64,000 nt of DNA from Sacculina carcini (lineage: Eukaryota > Arthropoda > Thecostraca > Sacculinidae): the NCBI GenBank assembly GCA_916048095.2, contig OU696576.1, positions 7,003,488-7,067,487 of the forward strand, written 5' to 3'. The notes beneath the pieces were generated by a model that did no database searches, had not been told where the DNA came from, and saw only the letters and a program-made list of their open reading frames with translations. Each line of letters opens with the position of its first letter. Positions within the stretch are counted from its first letter, which is position 1. Shown one piece after another: positions 46,591-59,500 of this stretch. The translations under genes were made by a program, and so were the position numbers.

Positions 46591-49387
46591 GCTTATTTTT
46601 AATTTATAATTAATAAACCAACAAGCTAGCGCAGGATGTTGTCTTTATGGATCATTTTCTAAGCACCCAATAAATAATACACAGCAACCGTGGGAATTTT
46701 TTTTGGGGAAATCTCCTCTGGAAATGGATATGCAAATTACATCTGGGGCAAAATGAATAATACCACTACGGCTGATAAAATTATAATTGTTTTCCCTCTA
46801 TCTATAAAAAAGACATTGTTTATATAATTATTAGCCTATATTATACCTAAGCGGCAAATATATTTCCTTTGCAATCATCACCTCAACGTAATATTCGTTG
46901 TTTTCCTGCAGGATTTCAACACAATTCTGTGCCAGTTTGATCAAATCGTCGAGTCGTTTGGCCGGAGAAATAGCTGTATCATCGACAGTCTCTTCTAGCC
47001 ACAACAAACGACATCATTTGCATATTGATGAGGGCAGTGCGTGTTGAGGCATAAATTGTTTCAAGTGTCGAATTTCCCAGCGCAAGATTGAGTTATATGA
47101 AATTTGTTCTGAATAGAGCGTATAGGGATTGCAAGAAATATTCTAAGAAGATGAACTTGTTAATATTTTAGCAGAGTTATAAGACAATGTTGTGGTTGAT
47201 GTAAATGTATTGATTGTATTCATGAGTGAACCGCCAGCATATAAGTATAGAAATGATAAGTGAAATTTTATGATTTATCTAAAAAGATTTACCCGGAAAT
47301 TCAACAATAACAACCCACAAACAATAGCAAACGACATCGGATGACCGCAACGCACCTTCTAACCGACTGTTTGTTGATAATCGGGTGTAGCACTTGAGTG
47401 CTGCACTCTGCAGACATTTCTTAATTACCGAGCGCACCTCCTCAGGACTGGGCGGTGTGACCACGTCTTTGTGCAATACACTCTCGAGCAACACGAGACT
47501 GGCCTTCAGAGCACCTTCGGGACGTCCAAACGGAAAGAAAGTTCTGCGTGTACGGCAGGATAGAGCAAGCATATCGAAGGCATTAAAGACAGAAAAATCA
47601 TGCAGGCTTATATTCGAGCAGCTTTCAATGTTGATTCAGATGGCGGAAAATGTGTGTCTCTAACACTGTACGATATTTGATCTGATCTTAAAATACGTAA
47701 TGTAATATTACCACGCAATATCTTAAATTTTAGCATAGAGTATAACATTATCCAATCTCAATTTGATTTATATAGAGTGAGAAAAAATCGGTTAAACAAA
47801 TTAATATATCAATTTTTGTGAACTAAAACTCGCAAATTATGTCAAAATGGGACAAATTTAATAAATAAGTCATAATTAATCATATTTAGGCTTATAATAG
47901 ATTTTAGTCTTTGAGAATATGTGAAAAATAAGACGTGTGTATATCTAATTTCCTACATATGTTCAACGCAAACCTCATTTGCATACTGCGCGCTAGCAGT
48001 AGGCTGTTTTTGAATATTTCCTACAGTCACTGAACTCCGTTGTCAGGCGTCCAGACCCACCTGAACTCTGCTATTTGATTCTGCAGCATAATTTCCAGCC
48101 TGTCCTTGATCTCTTGAAAGCACTCTTTCTCCTCGTGCAGCACCGTTCCCACGCCGTCCGGCCTGGTCACGTAACATGCGGCATTGTGATTGTGTTAGAT
48201 TGTGATTGTGTTAGATTGTGATTGTGTTAGATTGTGATTGTGTTAGATTGTAATTGTGTTAGATTGTAATTGTGTTAGATTGTGATTGTGTTAGATTATG
48301 ATTGTGTTAGATTGTGATTGTGTTAGATTGTGATTGTGTTAGATTGTGATTGTGTTAGATTGTGATTGTGTTAGATTGTGATTGTTTTAGATTGTGATTG
48401 TGTTAGATTGTGATTGTCTTAGATTGTGATTGTCTTAGATTGTGATTGTGTTAGATTGTGATTGTGTTAGATTGTGATTGCGTTAGATTGTGATTGTGTT
48501 AGATTGTGATTGTGTTAGATTGTGATTGTGTTAGATTGTGATTGTGTTAGATTGTGATTGTGTTAGATTGTGATTGTGTTAGATTGTGATTGTGTTAGAT
48601 TGTGATTGTGTTAGATTGTAATTGTGTTAGATTGTGATTGTGTTAGATTGTGATTGTGTTAGATTGTGATTGTGTTAGATTGTAATTGTGTTAGATTGTG
48701 ATTGTCTTAGATTGTGATTGTGTTAGATTGTGATTGTGTTAGATTGTGATTGTGTTAGATTGTGATTGCGTTAGATTGTGATTGTGTTAGATTGTGATTG
48801 TGTTAGATTGTGATTGTGTTAGATCGTGATTGTGTTAGATTGTGATTGTGTTAGATTGTGATTGTGTTAGATTGTGATCGTGTTAGATTGTGATTGTGTT
48901 AGATTGTGATTGTGTTAGATTGTGATTGTGTTAGATTGTGATTGTGTTAGATTGTGATTGTGTTAGATTGTGATTGTGTTAGATTGTGATTGTGTTAGAT
49001 TGTGATTGTTTTAGATTGTGATTGTGTTAGATTGTGATTGTGTTAGATTGTGATTGTGTTAGATTGTGATTGTGTTAGATTGTGATTGTGTTAGATTGTG
49101 ATTGTTTTAGATTGTGATTGTGTTAGATTGTGATTGTGTTAGATTGTGATTGTGTTAGATTGTAATTATGTTAGATTGTGATTGTGTTAGATTGTGATTG
49201 TGTTAGATTGTAATTGTGTTAGAAATGTGATTGTGTTAGATTGTGATTGTGTTAGATTGTAATTGTGTTAGATTGTGATTGTGTTAGATTGTGATTGTGT
49301 TAGATTGTAATTGTGTTAGAAATGTGATTGTATTAGATTGTGATTGTGTTAGATTGTGATTGTGTTAGATTGTAATTGTGTTAGAAA

Positions 49388-49419
<32 letters not shown>

Positions 49420-50777
49420 AAACAATAATACTAATAATAATAATAATAATGATTTCGTTGCAATTGCGAAATCCACTTTTATTACATTATGAGACAAATT
49501 GAAAAAACGTATATATGCATGGATATACAATCACAATCATACACACGTATCGATAGACGCAAACATACAAAAATACATATATACACAATAATATAAACAT
49601 ATCTCTTGTATATGTGTGTGTGTGTGTATGTGTGTGCATGTGAGTGTATGTGTGCGTATGCGTGTGTATATTTGTATACGTGAATGTGTATATATGTGTG
49701 TGTGAGTGTATATAAACATTTGTTTGTATGTGTGTTAGTGTGTCTGAGTGTATATAAACATTTGTGTATACCCCTACCACTGTCTCCTTGCCTCTAGCTT
49801 CTCAAATTCGCAACCTTGGCATCACATTTGATCCGACAATATCATTTTCTCAACACTTTTCTCAACTCACTCGCTCTTGCCGCTTCATTCTGAGAAAATT
49901 GTATCCCATACGTTCTCTTTTGGACGAATCTTCGGCTGTTCTTCTCGTCAATCCTTACATTTTCACTCGCCTAGATTACTGTAACTCCTTGTTTTTTCAC
50001 CTTCCCCTCAAAAGTATCCGCCATCTACAATCCATTATCAACCTTGCCTGTCGCTTCGTTCTTAAACTTCCTCCCAAAACGCCAACTTCAGCTCACCTTC
50101 ACCGCCTTGGTTGGCTCACTGCTCATTTCCGAATTCGCTACAAAATTTGCTGTTTGGTGTACAAAATCCTTCACTGTCCTTCACCCCCGTCCTATCTACG
50201 CTCACTACTTCTGGTTCAAGAGAGTACTTCTGGTTCACGTCGCCATTCTACTCCTCTAATCTGTCCCCCTGCGTTGAACCAATCCACTTGGTCTGCGAAA
50301 TCATTCTTTTTTTCTGCACCCCGCATTTATAATTCACTTCCTCCTCGCCTCCTCCGAATGAAATCCTACTCATCTTTCTCCTCTGAGCTGCACAAACATT
50401 TCCTTTCTTTGGCCTCAGAGTCTTCTTAAGTTTACTTGTTTGCAATGTTATAATTGATTTATTCTTCCTATTGATATTGATTTAATCCGTTTTTCCTTTT
50501 ATTTAATGATTTATCTCTTTTTTGCACATTTTAGTTACATATTCCGGACTCATAATTGCTACATGTTTGTGTTTCTGTTCTGCGCTGCATGTTTTTACTT
50601 CACCCAACCTTCGCAATTGACCCAATTTCCCACTTGCTCCAGTATTATTTTGCGTGTCGCGCGCTTGTAACTATTGTGTGCGCTATATTAAATACATGTT
50701 TGTTGTTGTTGTTGTTGTTGTTGTTATGTGTGTTAGTGTGTCTGAGTGTATATATACATGTGTGTATGTATGTGTGT

Positions 50778-52421: not shown

Positions 52422-53528
52422 ACACACACACACATACACGTTGAATGGTGAGCCGTGCAGGCATGTTGAGTGTAAGTTTCAAAGTGTCCGCCTTGTTGGT
52501 ATGCTGTTGTAGTGTTGGAAAAAAGGTCGTGCCAACAGAAATCTCACAGCTGTGTGTGTGTGTGTGTGTGTGTCTTATTAGGTGGACAAACAAAAGGTGA
52601 GTTTGCTATGTTGCAAGCTAGTCAAATTGGTAGTCTGTTTGTCTCTGGGGTAGAAGTCTGTTGCAAGCCAGTATACATGAGATAGTCTTTGACAAGGTGC
52701 ACGCGACAACAGTATGATTGCATGTTTTGTTGCAAATACTCAAATCAACATGCAGTGCTTATAAAATCAAGGTTGAAAGCAGAGTCGGTAGGGGATGACA
52801 CGACAGGATTATCTACAGTAAGCGCCAAAAGTTTGGACGCACAAGTGTTGATATAATACATTTACATGTAAATTGGTCATAAATTGGGATGCCTTCGCTT
52901 TCAAAGTCACAGACTAACTATACAGATTTTGTGTTTGTGTTTCGTGGGAGCGGAGGTTTTATTTTCCTTTTGTGCTAGCTATTAAGCATTTGGTCTCAAT
53001 GTTTTCAGCTATCAGTAGTCAAAAAGTATCAATTAATATCAGTAAAGCAAAAAATAGTCTACAAATTGTCCAATCAAATTTGTTGTGTCACTTTCATGCC
53101 GTCAAAATACAAGATTTTATTTTTGTTGTGGCTGGCGTCCAAGCTTTTCTTTTGCGGCTACTCCAAATAGGCGCAAACATTCTGTTCATCTGTTCTCTTT
53201 CTCTTCTGTTCTGTTCTTTCAGCGCTTTATCCACTAAACGCAAACACAACAAAAACACAGACACACGAGTGTGCGCGGTGGCCGATTTTGGGCGAAACTT
53301 TACCTGTTTCCGTGCACGTGGCTAGCGCAGAACGAGAAGCTACAATGGAAGAGCATCGGGTCTAGAAGATGTCCTTTCTCGCTGCTGTCAAGCAGTTCGA
53401 GTAGATAGCTGAGGTGTCGATGGCATTGGCGCACGCCGTAGCGCGCAATGTATTCGTCTAGAACGAAAATCTGCGCCGGACTGAACCAACCCTGATGGGC
53501 GGGGGGCGGTAGGACAATAACACACACA

Positions 53529-53575
<47 letters not shown>

Positions 53576-56500
53576 CGTTGATAGTCGTGGAGTGAATGTC
53601 GCATTTGGATTCGTATTCAATCTCCAAGCAGTCAGACAAACAAACAAACTAATCTCAGCAGCTGGATAAACAGAAAATTCCAAATTGATGTTTGTAGTTT
53701 GCAGTGAAGAGCCGTCGAAACTTTTGGCATTGTTTCCAATTCTGAATACGACTCAATACGACTTCATTAGTGAGAGAAGCATGTGCATGAATGTGTATGC
53801 GTGTGCGTGTGTGTATGTGTGTGTGTGTATGTAATCAGCGAGTGGTTCACAGCGGTGACATTTGACTATCGACTAGCTACGCCAAATATAATTGGATGGA
53901 GATTTATGGAGTATTTTATGGGCAAATATTATTGAGCCCAGTCATAACTAGCTTGAACTAGCTACATACACACACACACAGACACACATACACATCCAGA
54001 GGAAAGAAACAGCTGAATATTGCAAAAAAAGCAAAATATATTAATCGTCCATTGCATTCATATTATTATAAATATATATTATTATTATTATTATTATGAA
54101 TATAATTAATATGATGATGATGATTATTGTTATTAATTAGAGGCAAATTCAGGTTTATATCAAGAGTGCCGGCATTATATTACCCCAGCAACGGAAGTGT
54201 GCACATATTATATATATATTACGGAAGCGTATATTTTATACATTCCATATTGTAAATTCTAAATTATAAATTTTGTCCTATATACATTATTTAAAACACA
54301 AGTGATACAATTTCATCAATGTATTCTGTTTAGAATACATTATTTGTAGAATACATTATTTGTAGAATACATTATTTGTAGAATACATTATTTATAGAAT
54401 ACATTATTTGTAGAATACATTATTTGTAGAATACATTATTTGTATAGATACATTATTTGTAGAATACATTATTTGTAGAATACATTATTTGTATAGATAC
54501 ATTATTTGTGGAGAATACATTATTTGTACAATACATTATTTGCATAGAATACATTATTTGTAGAATAATGTGTTCTTCATTGTTATGCATATGTCTGTAT
54601 GTGTGTGTGAATGTATGTGTGTCGGATATATATTCACGCACGTCTACCCGCTACGCTTTGAAACTGTACAGCGGGAACTACAGCTAAAGTAAATGCTATT
54701 GGCAAAAATGTTTGCTGATTCAGTGCGATCGATACGGTACAAATGGAGTACACTGGATCCAGAAAATAGAACGAATTCTATGCACTCAACATTGTCAGGG
54801 CAAGTTAACGTTTTCCATTGGCAAGTCTGCCGATGTGTTGCACGTGCTCATTTCAGTTGTTGCATACAATCAATTCAGCTCCTGTTGCATGAATATCTAG
54901 GCGGTAAATGTTGTGTTTAGAGACTGAACACATTTACATTATCGGCTCAAATAAATACTCGTTGAATATAAAAGCACTGCATTAGTTGATAATGGCCGAA
55001 CAAAGTGATAAAGCGAGATATATAGCACGAATGAAAGCGGGTTGGATCGAATGGAAATTTATTGAGTCAGTTGCAGATCTGAAACGTACCAGCGAGGTCA
55101 GGGGGCCGTTGAGTCTGTACTCGAGAGTGGATGCTTGAAGAAAGCGTGACAGAGCCGCATGGTCCATTGCAGACGGGTCTGCCACAATGAACTCGTCCAT
55201 GCCATGCTTCTTGGCCCGATCCGTGTCTGTCGACGACAGAAAAACAAAGTTGTTTAAGACATTGAACAAACAATATAAGCCAGGAGTCGGCAAACTACAG
55301 CTCACGACGTGGATTTGTCCGGCCCGCCGATGGTAGTTGAGCTTGCTTGATAAAATGTACCAGCGTAGCTTCTAAAATAATTTAAAGTAGGTAAGCATGT
55401 TGGTTATTTTTGTTTTTTCATTGCGCGAAGCTCATCAATGATTAATATGAAATGCCAGGCTCAGTTTTTTGTCTTAATTACAAATGATTTAGTTCTGGAA
55501 TGTAGGTATTGAAAATAAGGACTATATGACCCGCGCTCGTGTTTTTTTCCAGTTATCCGTCCCTCAGTGGGAAAAAGTTTGCCGACTCCTGATATAGACA
55601 GTGGTAAATTTATTTTCATGTCTTTTTGAAGAAAACAAAAACTATCGGAATAGATTTATGGGTATATGGGAACATATACAACTCGGTACATGGGCCACCA
55701 CAAGACGGCAATAGTACTAGCAGTCTTCACATATCACTAGACCTGGCTGCAATTAATGACAAACACACCAATATCAAATATAATACTTCCCCTGAAGTGA
55801 AATCTCAAGTATCGACAAGTCTGCGAGTGCATTTTTCAGTTGTTGCACAAATTCAGTTGCATACATTTAGTCAGCACCACATTTTTGTCACGAATACCGT
55901 TTTTTCTCAGTATCGACTCCAGAACTCACCTCCTTGCAGTTTGCTGACACTAACAGGCTGTCCATGCTGCGGTGTCGGCTGTGTTGGCTTGTGGCTCTGT
56001 CCGGTGGCGCGGTACAGGGCCATCACCCACAAGTGACATTCACTCTCGTCGTCGCTGGCAAACAACACCCCGTCTCCATCGCGAACCGCGTTGAAAAAAC
56101 ACCGTCCGCCTTCCAAATCTGACAGCGTGTCAGCGTGTGTCAGTGTGTCAGTGTGTCAGTGTGTCAGTGTGTCGATGTGTCAGTGTGTCAGTGTGTCAGC
56201 GTTTAAGCGTGAAAGTGTGTAAGTGTGTCAGTATGTCAGTGTATCAGTGTGTCAGCGTGTCAGTGTGCCAGTTTGTCGGTGTGTCAATGTGTCAGCGTGT
56301 CAGCGTATCATTGTGTCAGTGTGTAAGTGTGTCGGTGTGTCAGTGTGTCAGTGTATTAGTGTGTAAGTGTGTCATTGTATCAGTGTGTCAGCGTGTCAGT
56401 ATGTCAGTGTGTCAGTGTGTCAGTGTTTAAGCGTGTCAGTGTGTCAGTGTGTTGGTGTGTCAGTGCGTCATTGTGTCATTTTGTCATTGTGTTAGAGTAT

Positions 56501-59500
56501 CAGTGAATCGGTGTGTCAGTGTGTCAGTATGTTAATATGTCAGTGTGTCAAAGTGTAAGTGTATTGTGTCAGTGTGTCAATGTGTCAGTGTGTCAGCGTG
56601 TAAGCGTGTAAGTGTGTCAGTATGTCAGTGTGTCAATGTGTCAGTGTATATGTTTCCTGAAGTAATTGTGCTAACCTATTGAACTTGGAATATGAGATTT
56701 CACTTTAAGCATACTTTGCACTCTGAACTAATGAAAAACACCAGGAATGTCAAGGACGAATTTTGGCTCTCTATATCTTGTATTGTCCTTCAATTTGAAC
56801 TGTTATAAATGTGGCCCGTTTTGGACTCAAATATAGACCAAACAAGTATTCATATATGGTTATAAAGAGTGTAAACACGAATGTGTGTGTGTGTGTGTGT
56901 GTGTTTGTGGGCCTGTCTACTAATGTATGCAATGTATCAACCAGATTTAATGTATAATACAAATGTGATAAATCAGGGATAATCTTACCCATTCCAGCCA
57001 TCAATTGTGCTGAAACGTACACACACACACAAGCACAAGAATGTTTAAATTTAAGCGAACTGAATGTTTTCAGATTATTTGGTTCGCCCAAGATCATATG
57101 TCATGTCAGCTTCGATTTCTTGCTAGCAATTATCGACAAAGTATAATTCTTGCAAACGGGTGATATAAATACAATAAACAAACAAATATTGTAAAATAAT
57201 TATCATAATTGGATATTGCATATCGTCTTTTTGTCATAGATAATAATGTCTATTTGGCAAACCAGTATTGGTTCTTGTTAAACGTAAAATCGGTAATCAA
57301 TTTGTCCCCTTTTATATTATATTAATCTGCATTCGGCTCATATCGCATGCTAAAATTTATATTTTTACCATTTTATTATGAAGTAAGAAATTGATCATAT
57401 TATATTTTTTTAAACATATTTAATATTGTCTATGTAACATTGTGCAATAAATAATCCACATTGGATCGTTTGGCAAGTAGTTTGTATACTCTACGTATTA
57501 CTTTGCTGTAGTTTATCCTTTATTAATTATTATTATTAATTTGATTAATTACAGGCAAGTCCAGTAGTAGCATGGGGGAAGAGTGCAAGTGCACTATTGC
57601 ACCACACTGCGGTGGCCCCATGTACCGGAAGCACCTAAAATGACGTAGGGAGAAAGAGAGTTGGAAAAGTAAAGATTCTTGTTAATGAAGAAGGAAGCAA
57701 AATAAATATACGATTAATTAAAAAACATCAAATCGGAAGGTGAAATATACGTGCATTTATAGACAATATATACAAAATTGTGCACCATACTTATTAAGAC
57801 AATACAATATCAAATTTAACGGAGTTAGGCCTCACCGCTGGCCGCTTCGAGAAAATCCACTGTGTATCCGTCCATTTGCAACAGTTCTGACGGCTCCGAT
57901 TTGCGTTCGAGATAGCAGCACATTGCAAACGTGTACTGCGACACTTGAACCAGCACAAAATAGCGCCGTTTCCATTTTCGCCAGATATTCTTGCCGGTGG
58001 CGTATAAATATCTGCACATACACGTTGTACACGACAATTTTTGGCGTTCGTTTTTTGTGTGTGGCGTGTTTGGACGTGTTTTATGTTGGCGTTTTTGTGC
58101 TCGCAAGCCAAAACATCGTCATTTTCTCGTAAATTAATAATATAATGACTTTTAATTATTAATTGTTGATAATATAATTACTATAAATTATTAATTTTTT
58201 TTTTTCTCATTTCTTTATTTATTTTTCTTATTTATTTATTTATTATTCTTATTAATTTATTTAATATTCTTATTTATTCATTTATTATTCTTGTTCATTT
58301 ATTTATTATTCTCATTTATTTATTAATAAGTAAAAAAATTATTTGTTTTAAAGTAATTCTAATATCTTCTGTACATATTTCGTTGTATACAGAAACAAAC
58401 GCATAAAACAGCTATCATATTTCTCCTAATGGCGTGCAAGCATGATATTATTTCGGCACATTATTGCAGTCATAAGTATCGAAAATCATTGAGCACGTGA
58501 GCTTGCGTGCGTGCCTGCCGAGCCAATCTACCGGGGAAATTAGCTGTACGTTATGGCCAACGTTGTTTACCTATACGTCTTGTCCCATATTGGCTCTCCC
58601 ATATTGCGCAGATCGTGCGTAAATTCGCACAATTCTATGCCAATTCACAAATCACTCAGCGCCTACAGAAAAAACAAAATTCAAAGTTCCTACAGGACGG
58701 CTAAGAAGTCACAATTCCAATTATCAACCTTGGTAACTTGGAATTAGTTAGTTTCCTCAGCATTTTAGTGTAATTAATCTTAATTACGACTAATATTAGT
58801 GAGAAAGCTAATGTATGTCGACCTCTAAAGACCAATCTACTTCGTGCAAGTGGTCTGTAGATACTGGACACACGTGAAAACATTGTTCTCACCCGCCATG
58901 TTTCATGTTGAGGGGCTTGTCCATGCGACAGGCTATTTTGATCTTGAGATCTTGGTCGGCGGCGCTTTTTGGAACGGTCAGCTTGTGCCATTCGTACGAC
59001 TGTGAAACATAATAGAGTCATACATTGCATCAAGTCCAGTGTATCCAGAGTATCAGTGGCGGCACCAAGGCGAAACTTGACGAAAGTGAAAACCCTCTGA
59101 GTCCTGCCACCCTTTAAAATCCTGACCACTGATATTTCCAGTGTAGTCCCTCGTGTTTCATCAAGGCCCCGTATCTTCTTCCTCAGTCCCTTCCCCCACA
59201 TTCAGCTCCCCCACCGGAGAAATCCTGGCGCCGCCACTGCACCGGATACGATTGTAGTGTATCCATGCCAATTACAATTGCATCGTTTAACGGCGATCAA
59301 AAAAGCGGCAATTTTTTCACAAAAAAACACATTGCATAATCACTGGTGCTATTAGTTTACGCTATTAGTTTACGCTACTTTTTCAACTTGCCACTTGAAC
59401 AATCTTGTAATGATAAATGGATTTTATTGAGAAGGCGCACAGTCAACTGACATTTGTGACGAGATAAATCCAAATTTACGACAAGACCGGGCACCTGTGA

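Follow-up and report, generated by a model that had tools for sequence, protein, structure and literature searches.

A 16-bp minisatellite with candidate branch sites at the 3' end of a CADPS intron

The locus described here bears on whether a tandem repeat can come to occupy the region from which the branch site is chosen. In a 64,000-nt stretch of DNA (C8:7003488-7067487, hereafter the window, from a genome of 264 Mb in 43 contigs), a minisatellite whose units carry the branch-point-like motif CTAAC runs almost up to the 3' splice site of an intron. From the genes that it contains, we take the source of the window to be an animal. An initial annotation proposed that the array offers many branch points to the acceptor that follows it. 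Here we describe the array and its host gene, compare the site with other acceptors of the same genome, and weigh the proposal against competing explanations.

The array, its exon and its host gene

The host gene lies on the minus strand of the window and is CADPS/CAPS, its joined exons matching the Pfam families C2_CAPS (1.4e-33), PH (7.1e-06) and MUN (4.9e-53). No Pfam family was matched by the joined fragment with the exon next to the array; the peptide of this exon alone gave no Pfam family above the cut-off and no PDB match, and the two-exon peptide found PDB matches at chance level only. A second CADPS gene, on contig C6, aligns with the window gene exon by exon. The features around the array are the following.

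48183..49385, minus strand: 16-bp minisatellite of 75.1 copies (TRF and unit alignment), sense unit AATCTAACACAATCAC, 68 CTAAC
48163..48164, minus strand: AG of the 3' splice site, placed by alignment with the paralog
48061..48162, minus strand: CADPS exon of 102 nt, phase 2-2, from the paralog and the junction; donor TTCAG/GTGGGT
53304..53491, minus strand: upstream CADPS exon, ending AACAG/GTAAAG; the intron donor GTAAAG starts at 53303

TRF reports the array at 48183-49385 with a period of 16, 75.1 copies, 96% matches and a score of 2220, which bears out the minisatellite of about 75 units that had been proposed for the transcribed strand; with head-to-tail units of 16 bp it falls within the usual definition of a minisatellite (units of about 10-100 bp). 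An array of 75 copies is beyond chance, and that its motif and position are also beyond chance is only moderately supported. The gap between the array and the exon measures 20 nt with the AG included (an 18-nt spacer plus the AG), in good agreement with the earlier estimate of about 21 bp before the exon at 48162.

The acceptor assigned to this exon by the initial annotation is upheld on two grounds. The paralogous exon on C6 starts TTAG/GCCCAGTGGAGTG, compared with CCAG/GCCGGACGGCGTG in the window, that is, at the same base and in the same frame, and the junction of the upstream exon with the array exon has an open frame and consistent phase; both support the AG at 48163-48164. A splice site further upstream, within the array or before it, was considered because the exon frame stays open into the array's final bases, and it was rejected because the paralog exon begins at the equivalent G, with a stop just upstream. 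The intron that bears the array is 5141 nt long (donor at 53303) and has the features of a U2-type GT-AG intron, namely AACAG/GTAAAG at one end, CCAG/GCCGG at the other and an open junction. The U12-type donor consensus is RTATCCTT, and a U12-type intron is ruled out here by the donor, GTAAAGTT. Since the 102-nt exon is of phase 2-2, it can be skipped with the reading frame kept.

In the C6 paralog, the 3' end of the equivalent intron is free of arrays; the nearest one listed for this intron is 53 bp long, has a TG-rich 18-bp unit and lies 690 nt before the exon. If functional, the 16-bp array would not be common to that paralog. Within the array-bearing intron of the window, an open frame on the plus strand (49758-50429), antisense to CADPS, resembles by eye the end of a non-LTR reverse transcriptase; a Pfam search with it gave no match.

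The units of the array are highly uniform. By unit alignment, the minus-strand (transcribed) unit is identical in 54 of the 74 complete units, and the 75 CTAAN motifs comprise 68 CTAAC, three CTAAA, three CTAAG and one CTAAT. TCTAA, at unit positions 3-7, is invariant across the units, position 14 is the most variable (9/75), and position 8, the C of CTAAC, comes second (7/75: three A, three G, one T). Because this C varies, unit comparison does not demonstrate constraint on the whole motif, and selection on CTAAC across units is unsupported, given that the invariant TCTAA is followed by a variable base. An AG within the array is created solely by the three CTAAG units, which are the 15th, 16th and 33rd of 75 counted from the exon; these positions are uninformative as to whether AG variants close to the acceptor are selected against, an idea that we set aside. 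As to the array's origin, a two-unit 32-mer probe with at most three mismatches found 72 matches genome-wide, all 72 inside 48183-49385 and none elsewhere. A copy of a dispersed repeat is therefore without support for the 16-bp array, and the result would fit a local origin.

Candidate branch sites in two AG-free zones

The part of the array closest to the exon contains the following features.

48194..48198, minus strand: acceptor-proximal CTAAC, with the candidate branch adenosine at 48195 (fourth base), 33 nt before the exon
48165..48417, minus strand: 253-nt AG-free zone leading up to the acceptor AG, with 13 CTAAC and one CTAAA
48418..48419, minus strand: first upstream AG, in a CTAAG variant, the 15th unit from the exon
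A at 48435 and A at 48707, minus strand: further CTAAG units

The first two CTAAC adenosines lie at -33 and -49, and the CTAAC at -33 places a match to yUnAy within the usual branch window. This is the adenosine, at 48195, that had been put about 33 nt from the AG. Given an array end at -21, any branch site at the usual distance would almost surely lie in the array, or else just at the border of the 18-nt spacer. The branch base itself is not set by the sequence, since the units hold AUCAC besides CTAAC; its A falls at -25, and it is a poorer match than the CTAAC at -33. A polypyrimidine tract beside the candidate branch site is absent, the pyrimidine runs of the 16-bp unit being no longer than three. 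In the last 17 nt before the CAG at the 48162 exon, the pyrimidine fraction is 0.53 (median 0.59) and that of U is 0.24 (median 0.41). In a predicted fold of 180 nt of the proximal array, nine of ten CTAAC adenosines are unpaired at 0.90-1.0, and the tenth, which is the favoured candidate at -33, is the least accessible, at 0.62.

The AG-free zone bears directly on which acceptor would be chosen. Scanning for AG would stop at the true AG whichever of the 13 proximal sites it started from, so the proximal array is safe. Use of the AG at 48419 as an acceptor would add 255 nt and introduce an early in-frame stop (codon 12, in a test frame that starts AAC AG).

A second array adjoins another acceptor of the same gene.

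56135..56647, minus strand: second array, 8 bp x 64.5 (TRF), sense unit CTGACACA, 34 CTGAC
55930..56118, minus strand: CADPS PH-domain exon of 189 nt, following the second array; acceptor AG at 56120-56119

Here no AG occurs from 56656 to 56121, leaving 536 nt AG-free, and CTGAC adenosines precede the PH-domain exon at -22, -30, -38 and -46. The acceptor is backed by the paralog (TATCAG/ATCTGGAAGG versus TGTCAG/ATTTGGAAGG). In a predicted fold of this site, 11 of 13 CTGAC adenosines are unpaired at no less than 0.78, with the remaining two at 0.41 and 0.22. The unit of the second array belongs to a dispersed family: a 39-mer probe with at most two mismatches has 658 forward and 1017 reverse matches (1675) genome-wide, and we take the 8-bp array to be a member of this dispersed family. 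On contig C7, one copy precedes a myosin exon match in the sense orientation; it is interspersed with plain CA repeats and, judged by eye, stops short of the acceptor. In the C6 paralog, the intron before the PH-domain exon carries a different array, with a 15-bp unit (ATCATGTGTGACTTA x 8.4), which ends 41 nt before the exon (C6:10630798-10630926).

The two sites among other acceptors and arrays

To place these sites we used 78 acceptors, 21 and 22 from the two CADPS genes and 35 from myosin (of 81 junctions tried, three could not be located). Among the 78, finite AG-free zones are longest at the two array acceptors, at 253 and 536 nt with the next at 232 nt; at acceptor L085 the 312 nt examined lack an upstream AG, which bounds its zone only from below. 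Both are thus large AG exclusion zones, well above the usual length. Inside these zones CTRAY occurs 13 and 39 times, the next highest count among the 78 acceptors being one, and the U content before the AG at the two array sites is the third and sixth lowest. A second set comprised 79 stretches upstream of exon matches, 39 from myosin (partly overlapping the 78 acceptors) and 40 from kinesin, taken from the start of the match and not from the exact acceptor. Per 300 nt, CTRAC was found not at all in 63 of them, once in 14, twice in one and three times in one, compared with 14 and 21 times at the array sites.

The arrays themselves can be surveyed in the same way. Around both CADPS paralogs there are 149 arrays with a period of at least 7, five of them with CTRAC in the sense unit and three with CTRAC in the antisense unit; among the 42 that span at least 60 bp, the counts are three and zero, and two of these three adjoin acceptors. 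Across 122 regions (43 CADPS, 79 others), CTRAC arrays meet acceptors in two, both in one gene. The kinesin matches also include a cluster at C11:1881371-2062534, where eight single-frame full-length motor matches share a strand, out of 23 genome-wide that are full-length and stop-free; this cluster is possibly an expansion or a set of retrocopies.

Position beside an acceptor is not special in itself, because arrays at acceptors are common in this genome. A tandem array ends within 80 nt of the exon match in 41 of the 79 other exon-side stretches. Of 124 arrays in the two CADPS genes, 18 have an end no more than 60 nt from an acceptor versus 4.37 expected, and of the ten arrays with a period of at least 7 and a length of at least 100 bp, three (the two CTRAC arrays and one TG array) come to within 25 nt of one versus 0.15 expected, where the expected counts assume uniform placement and the comparison is post hoc. 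With many arrays and many acceptors, some chance meetings follow. Triplets of CTAAC at 6-30-nt gaps are also abundant and strand-symmetric genome-wide (25348/24734 overlapping matches, with 6396/5551 for the reversed motif), so that some CTAAC array near an acceptor is to be expected. The presence of two such arrays within one gene is notable but post hoc.

These frequencies favour an explanation in which the array is an ordinary intronic minisatellite and a passive neighbour of the acceptor, with branching at a degenerate site (the AUCAC at -25, or a sequence unlike yUnAy) and CTAAC incidental. The motif counts at the other 76 acceptors point the same way. CTRAY is found at 5/2356 positions between -50 and -15 versus 50/13376 between -290 and -110 (ratio 0.57), yUnAy at 47/2356 versus 366/13376 in the same zones (ratio 0.73), and CTAAC at none between -50 and -15; CTGAC, at 2/2356 versus 6/13376 (ratio 1.89), is too rare to weigh. 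As CTRAY and yUnAy are not enriched at these 76 acceptors, a CTAAC branch consensus is not apparent in this genome, and the initial annotation's appeal to the metazoan consensus is weak here. On the other side, the reach of the array to -21 means that a branch site at 18-40 nt is almost surely inside it, and the second array, with a different unit, repeats the layout, likewise with CTRAC. We therefore consider a purely passive array rather unlikely. The branch-point reading of the initial annotation stands in part: it is favoured by a CTAAC in the usual window, an AG-free proximal stretch and a second similar array, and it is weakened by the lack of enrichment of the motif elsewhere.

What does mark acceptors in this genome appears to be a different sequence. 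TGTGT is enriched 9.1-fold in the near zone of the other 76 acceptors, where CACAC is mildly rarer (ratio 0.61). A TG6 run occurs in the last 100 nt of 29/79 stretches and 11/43 CADPS acceptors (40/122), and a CA6 run in 1/79 and 0/43 (1/122), despite an equal sense background of 161 TG6 and 161 CA6 runs in the two CADPS regions. Sense UG repeats are thus a mark of many 3' splice sites in this genome, a pattern to which the two CA-rich arrays run counter.

This contrast raises the prospect that the sense array binds hnRNP L/LL-type proteins and regulates inclusion of the 102-nt exon, probably by repressing it or making it conditional. According to PMC3823766, hnRNP L and LL favour repeated CA, with a CANNCA spacing that is stricter for LL than for L. 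Clustered CA with this spacing is present in the consensus unit as CACAATCACA, and the scarcity of CA6 beside acceptors makes a CA-rich acceptor stand out. The motif is of low complexity, however, and CACAC is only mildly depleted near acceptors; we judge such a binding platform improbable.

Precedents and the proposed mechanism

Repeats that touch splice sites and exons with multiple branch points are both known already. Among the open-access papers listed by a literature search, none was seen to describe a tandem branch-point array at an acceptor. Several known systems are comparable in part. Cuin and Porter, in 1995, reportedly described a minisatellite that provides multiple splice donor sites in the interferon-induced 6-16 transcript. 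Like the CADPS array, it holds repeated copies of a splicing signal, but it supplies donors, whereas the CADPS array would supply a branch site, which could be reused without necessarily changing the mRNA. Tau exon 6 is said, in work by Wang from 2007, to have multiple branch points, and thus to share with the CADPS reading the use of several branch points for one exon; it is not known to involve a tandem array. CFTR exon 9 is known for its (TG)m(T)n acceptor polymorphism, which resembles the CADPS array in being a tandem repeat at an acceptor (variable in CFTR) and differs in being a UG/U tract, where the CADPS array has a CA-rich unit with a branch-like motif.

Exons with distant branch points, as presented in Gooding 2006 (PMC1431707), have large AG exclusion zones with the branch site and polypyrimidine tract toward the far end of the zone. 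Both CADPS array sites share with those exons the long AG-free region before the acceptor (here 253 and 536 nt), but differ in that the zone is filled with motifs and lacks a visible polypyrimidine tract. A study of ABCA7 describes an intron 18 VNTR with a 25-bp unit at the exon 18 donor, associated with unit retention and in-frame exon skipping, whose length correlates with exon 19 skipping, an effect ascribed there to splice-factor motifs (PMC5954066). It is, like the CADPS array, an intronic minisatellite touching a splice site, but it lies at a donor and carries splice-factor motifs, whereas the CADPS array lies at an acceptor and carries branch-like ones.

The ABCA7 case would be a precedent for a further explanation, advanced by the initial annotation, in which the length of the CADPS array, through the use of proximal or distal branch points, sets exon inclusion among individuals. 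Such tuning would be helped by the near-identity of the units and by an exon whose frame survives skipping. However, the ABCA7 precedent concerns a donor and another proposed mechanism (PMC5954066). Moreover, with 13 equivalent sites already present in the proximal 253 nt, extra distal units should matter little, and we hold this explanation to be distinctly improbable.

It is very improbable that the CA-rich array acts as a structural bridge, pairing with the sense UG tract at 52439-52347 of its intron and so bringing the splice sites together: the predicted duplex energy (-73.3) lies below that of 100 mononucleotide shuffles (mean -50.0, lowest -71.6) and the idea of structure replacing U2AF2 has reportedly been published, but two plain CA tracts of the same intron pair far better with the UG tract (-184.7 and -164.7), the tract lies about 860 nt from the donor, and the modelled case for array pairing is weak.

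The reading that we put forward, with chances that we place just short of even, is that a minisatellite absent from the paralog fills the 3' end of a CADPS intron of U2 type and is tolerated there as an AG-free sequence whose proximal units serve as putative branch sites, so that no regulatory role is needed. The minisatellite would have expanded in place at the 3' end of the intron and would now cover approximately -21 to -1220 relative to the exon, in place of an ordinary 3' splice-site tract. It may have persisted because its proximal sense strand lacks AG and because nearly every unit would offer a UCUAAC branch site. The spliceosome would then branch at a proximal unit, most likely at the A at 48195 (-33), and would splice to the next AG downstream; for each of the 13 proximal CTAAC motifs this AG is the true acceptor. 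Distal units, past the first CTAAG variant, would be either neutral or a source of cryptic, stop-containing products. Tolerance, not regulation, would maintain the array.

The occurrence of two arrays in one gene suggests, short of proof, that tandem repeats can take over the branch region of an intron. A much stronger claim would be that minisatellites of branch points form a genuine class of 3' splice site, in which AG-free arrays with a usable branch site in each unit replace the UG or pyrimidine tract and interchangeable branch points resolve to one AG, with the two CADPS arrays as examples and with length or CTAAG variants shifting the inclusion of in-frame exons in a neurosecretion gene; we regard this as quite improbable.

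Branch sites are loosely constrained, and the locus bears on how much redundancy they tolerate. Thirteen almost identical candidate branch sites at even spacing, all followed by one and the same AG, form a natural ruler for branch choice, spacing and AG scanning. If the arrangement is real, a minisatellite would be able to assume an essential splice signal, which would bear on how repeats near exons come to be tolerated or harmful.
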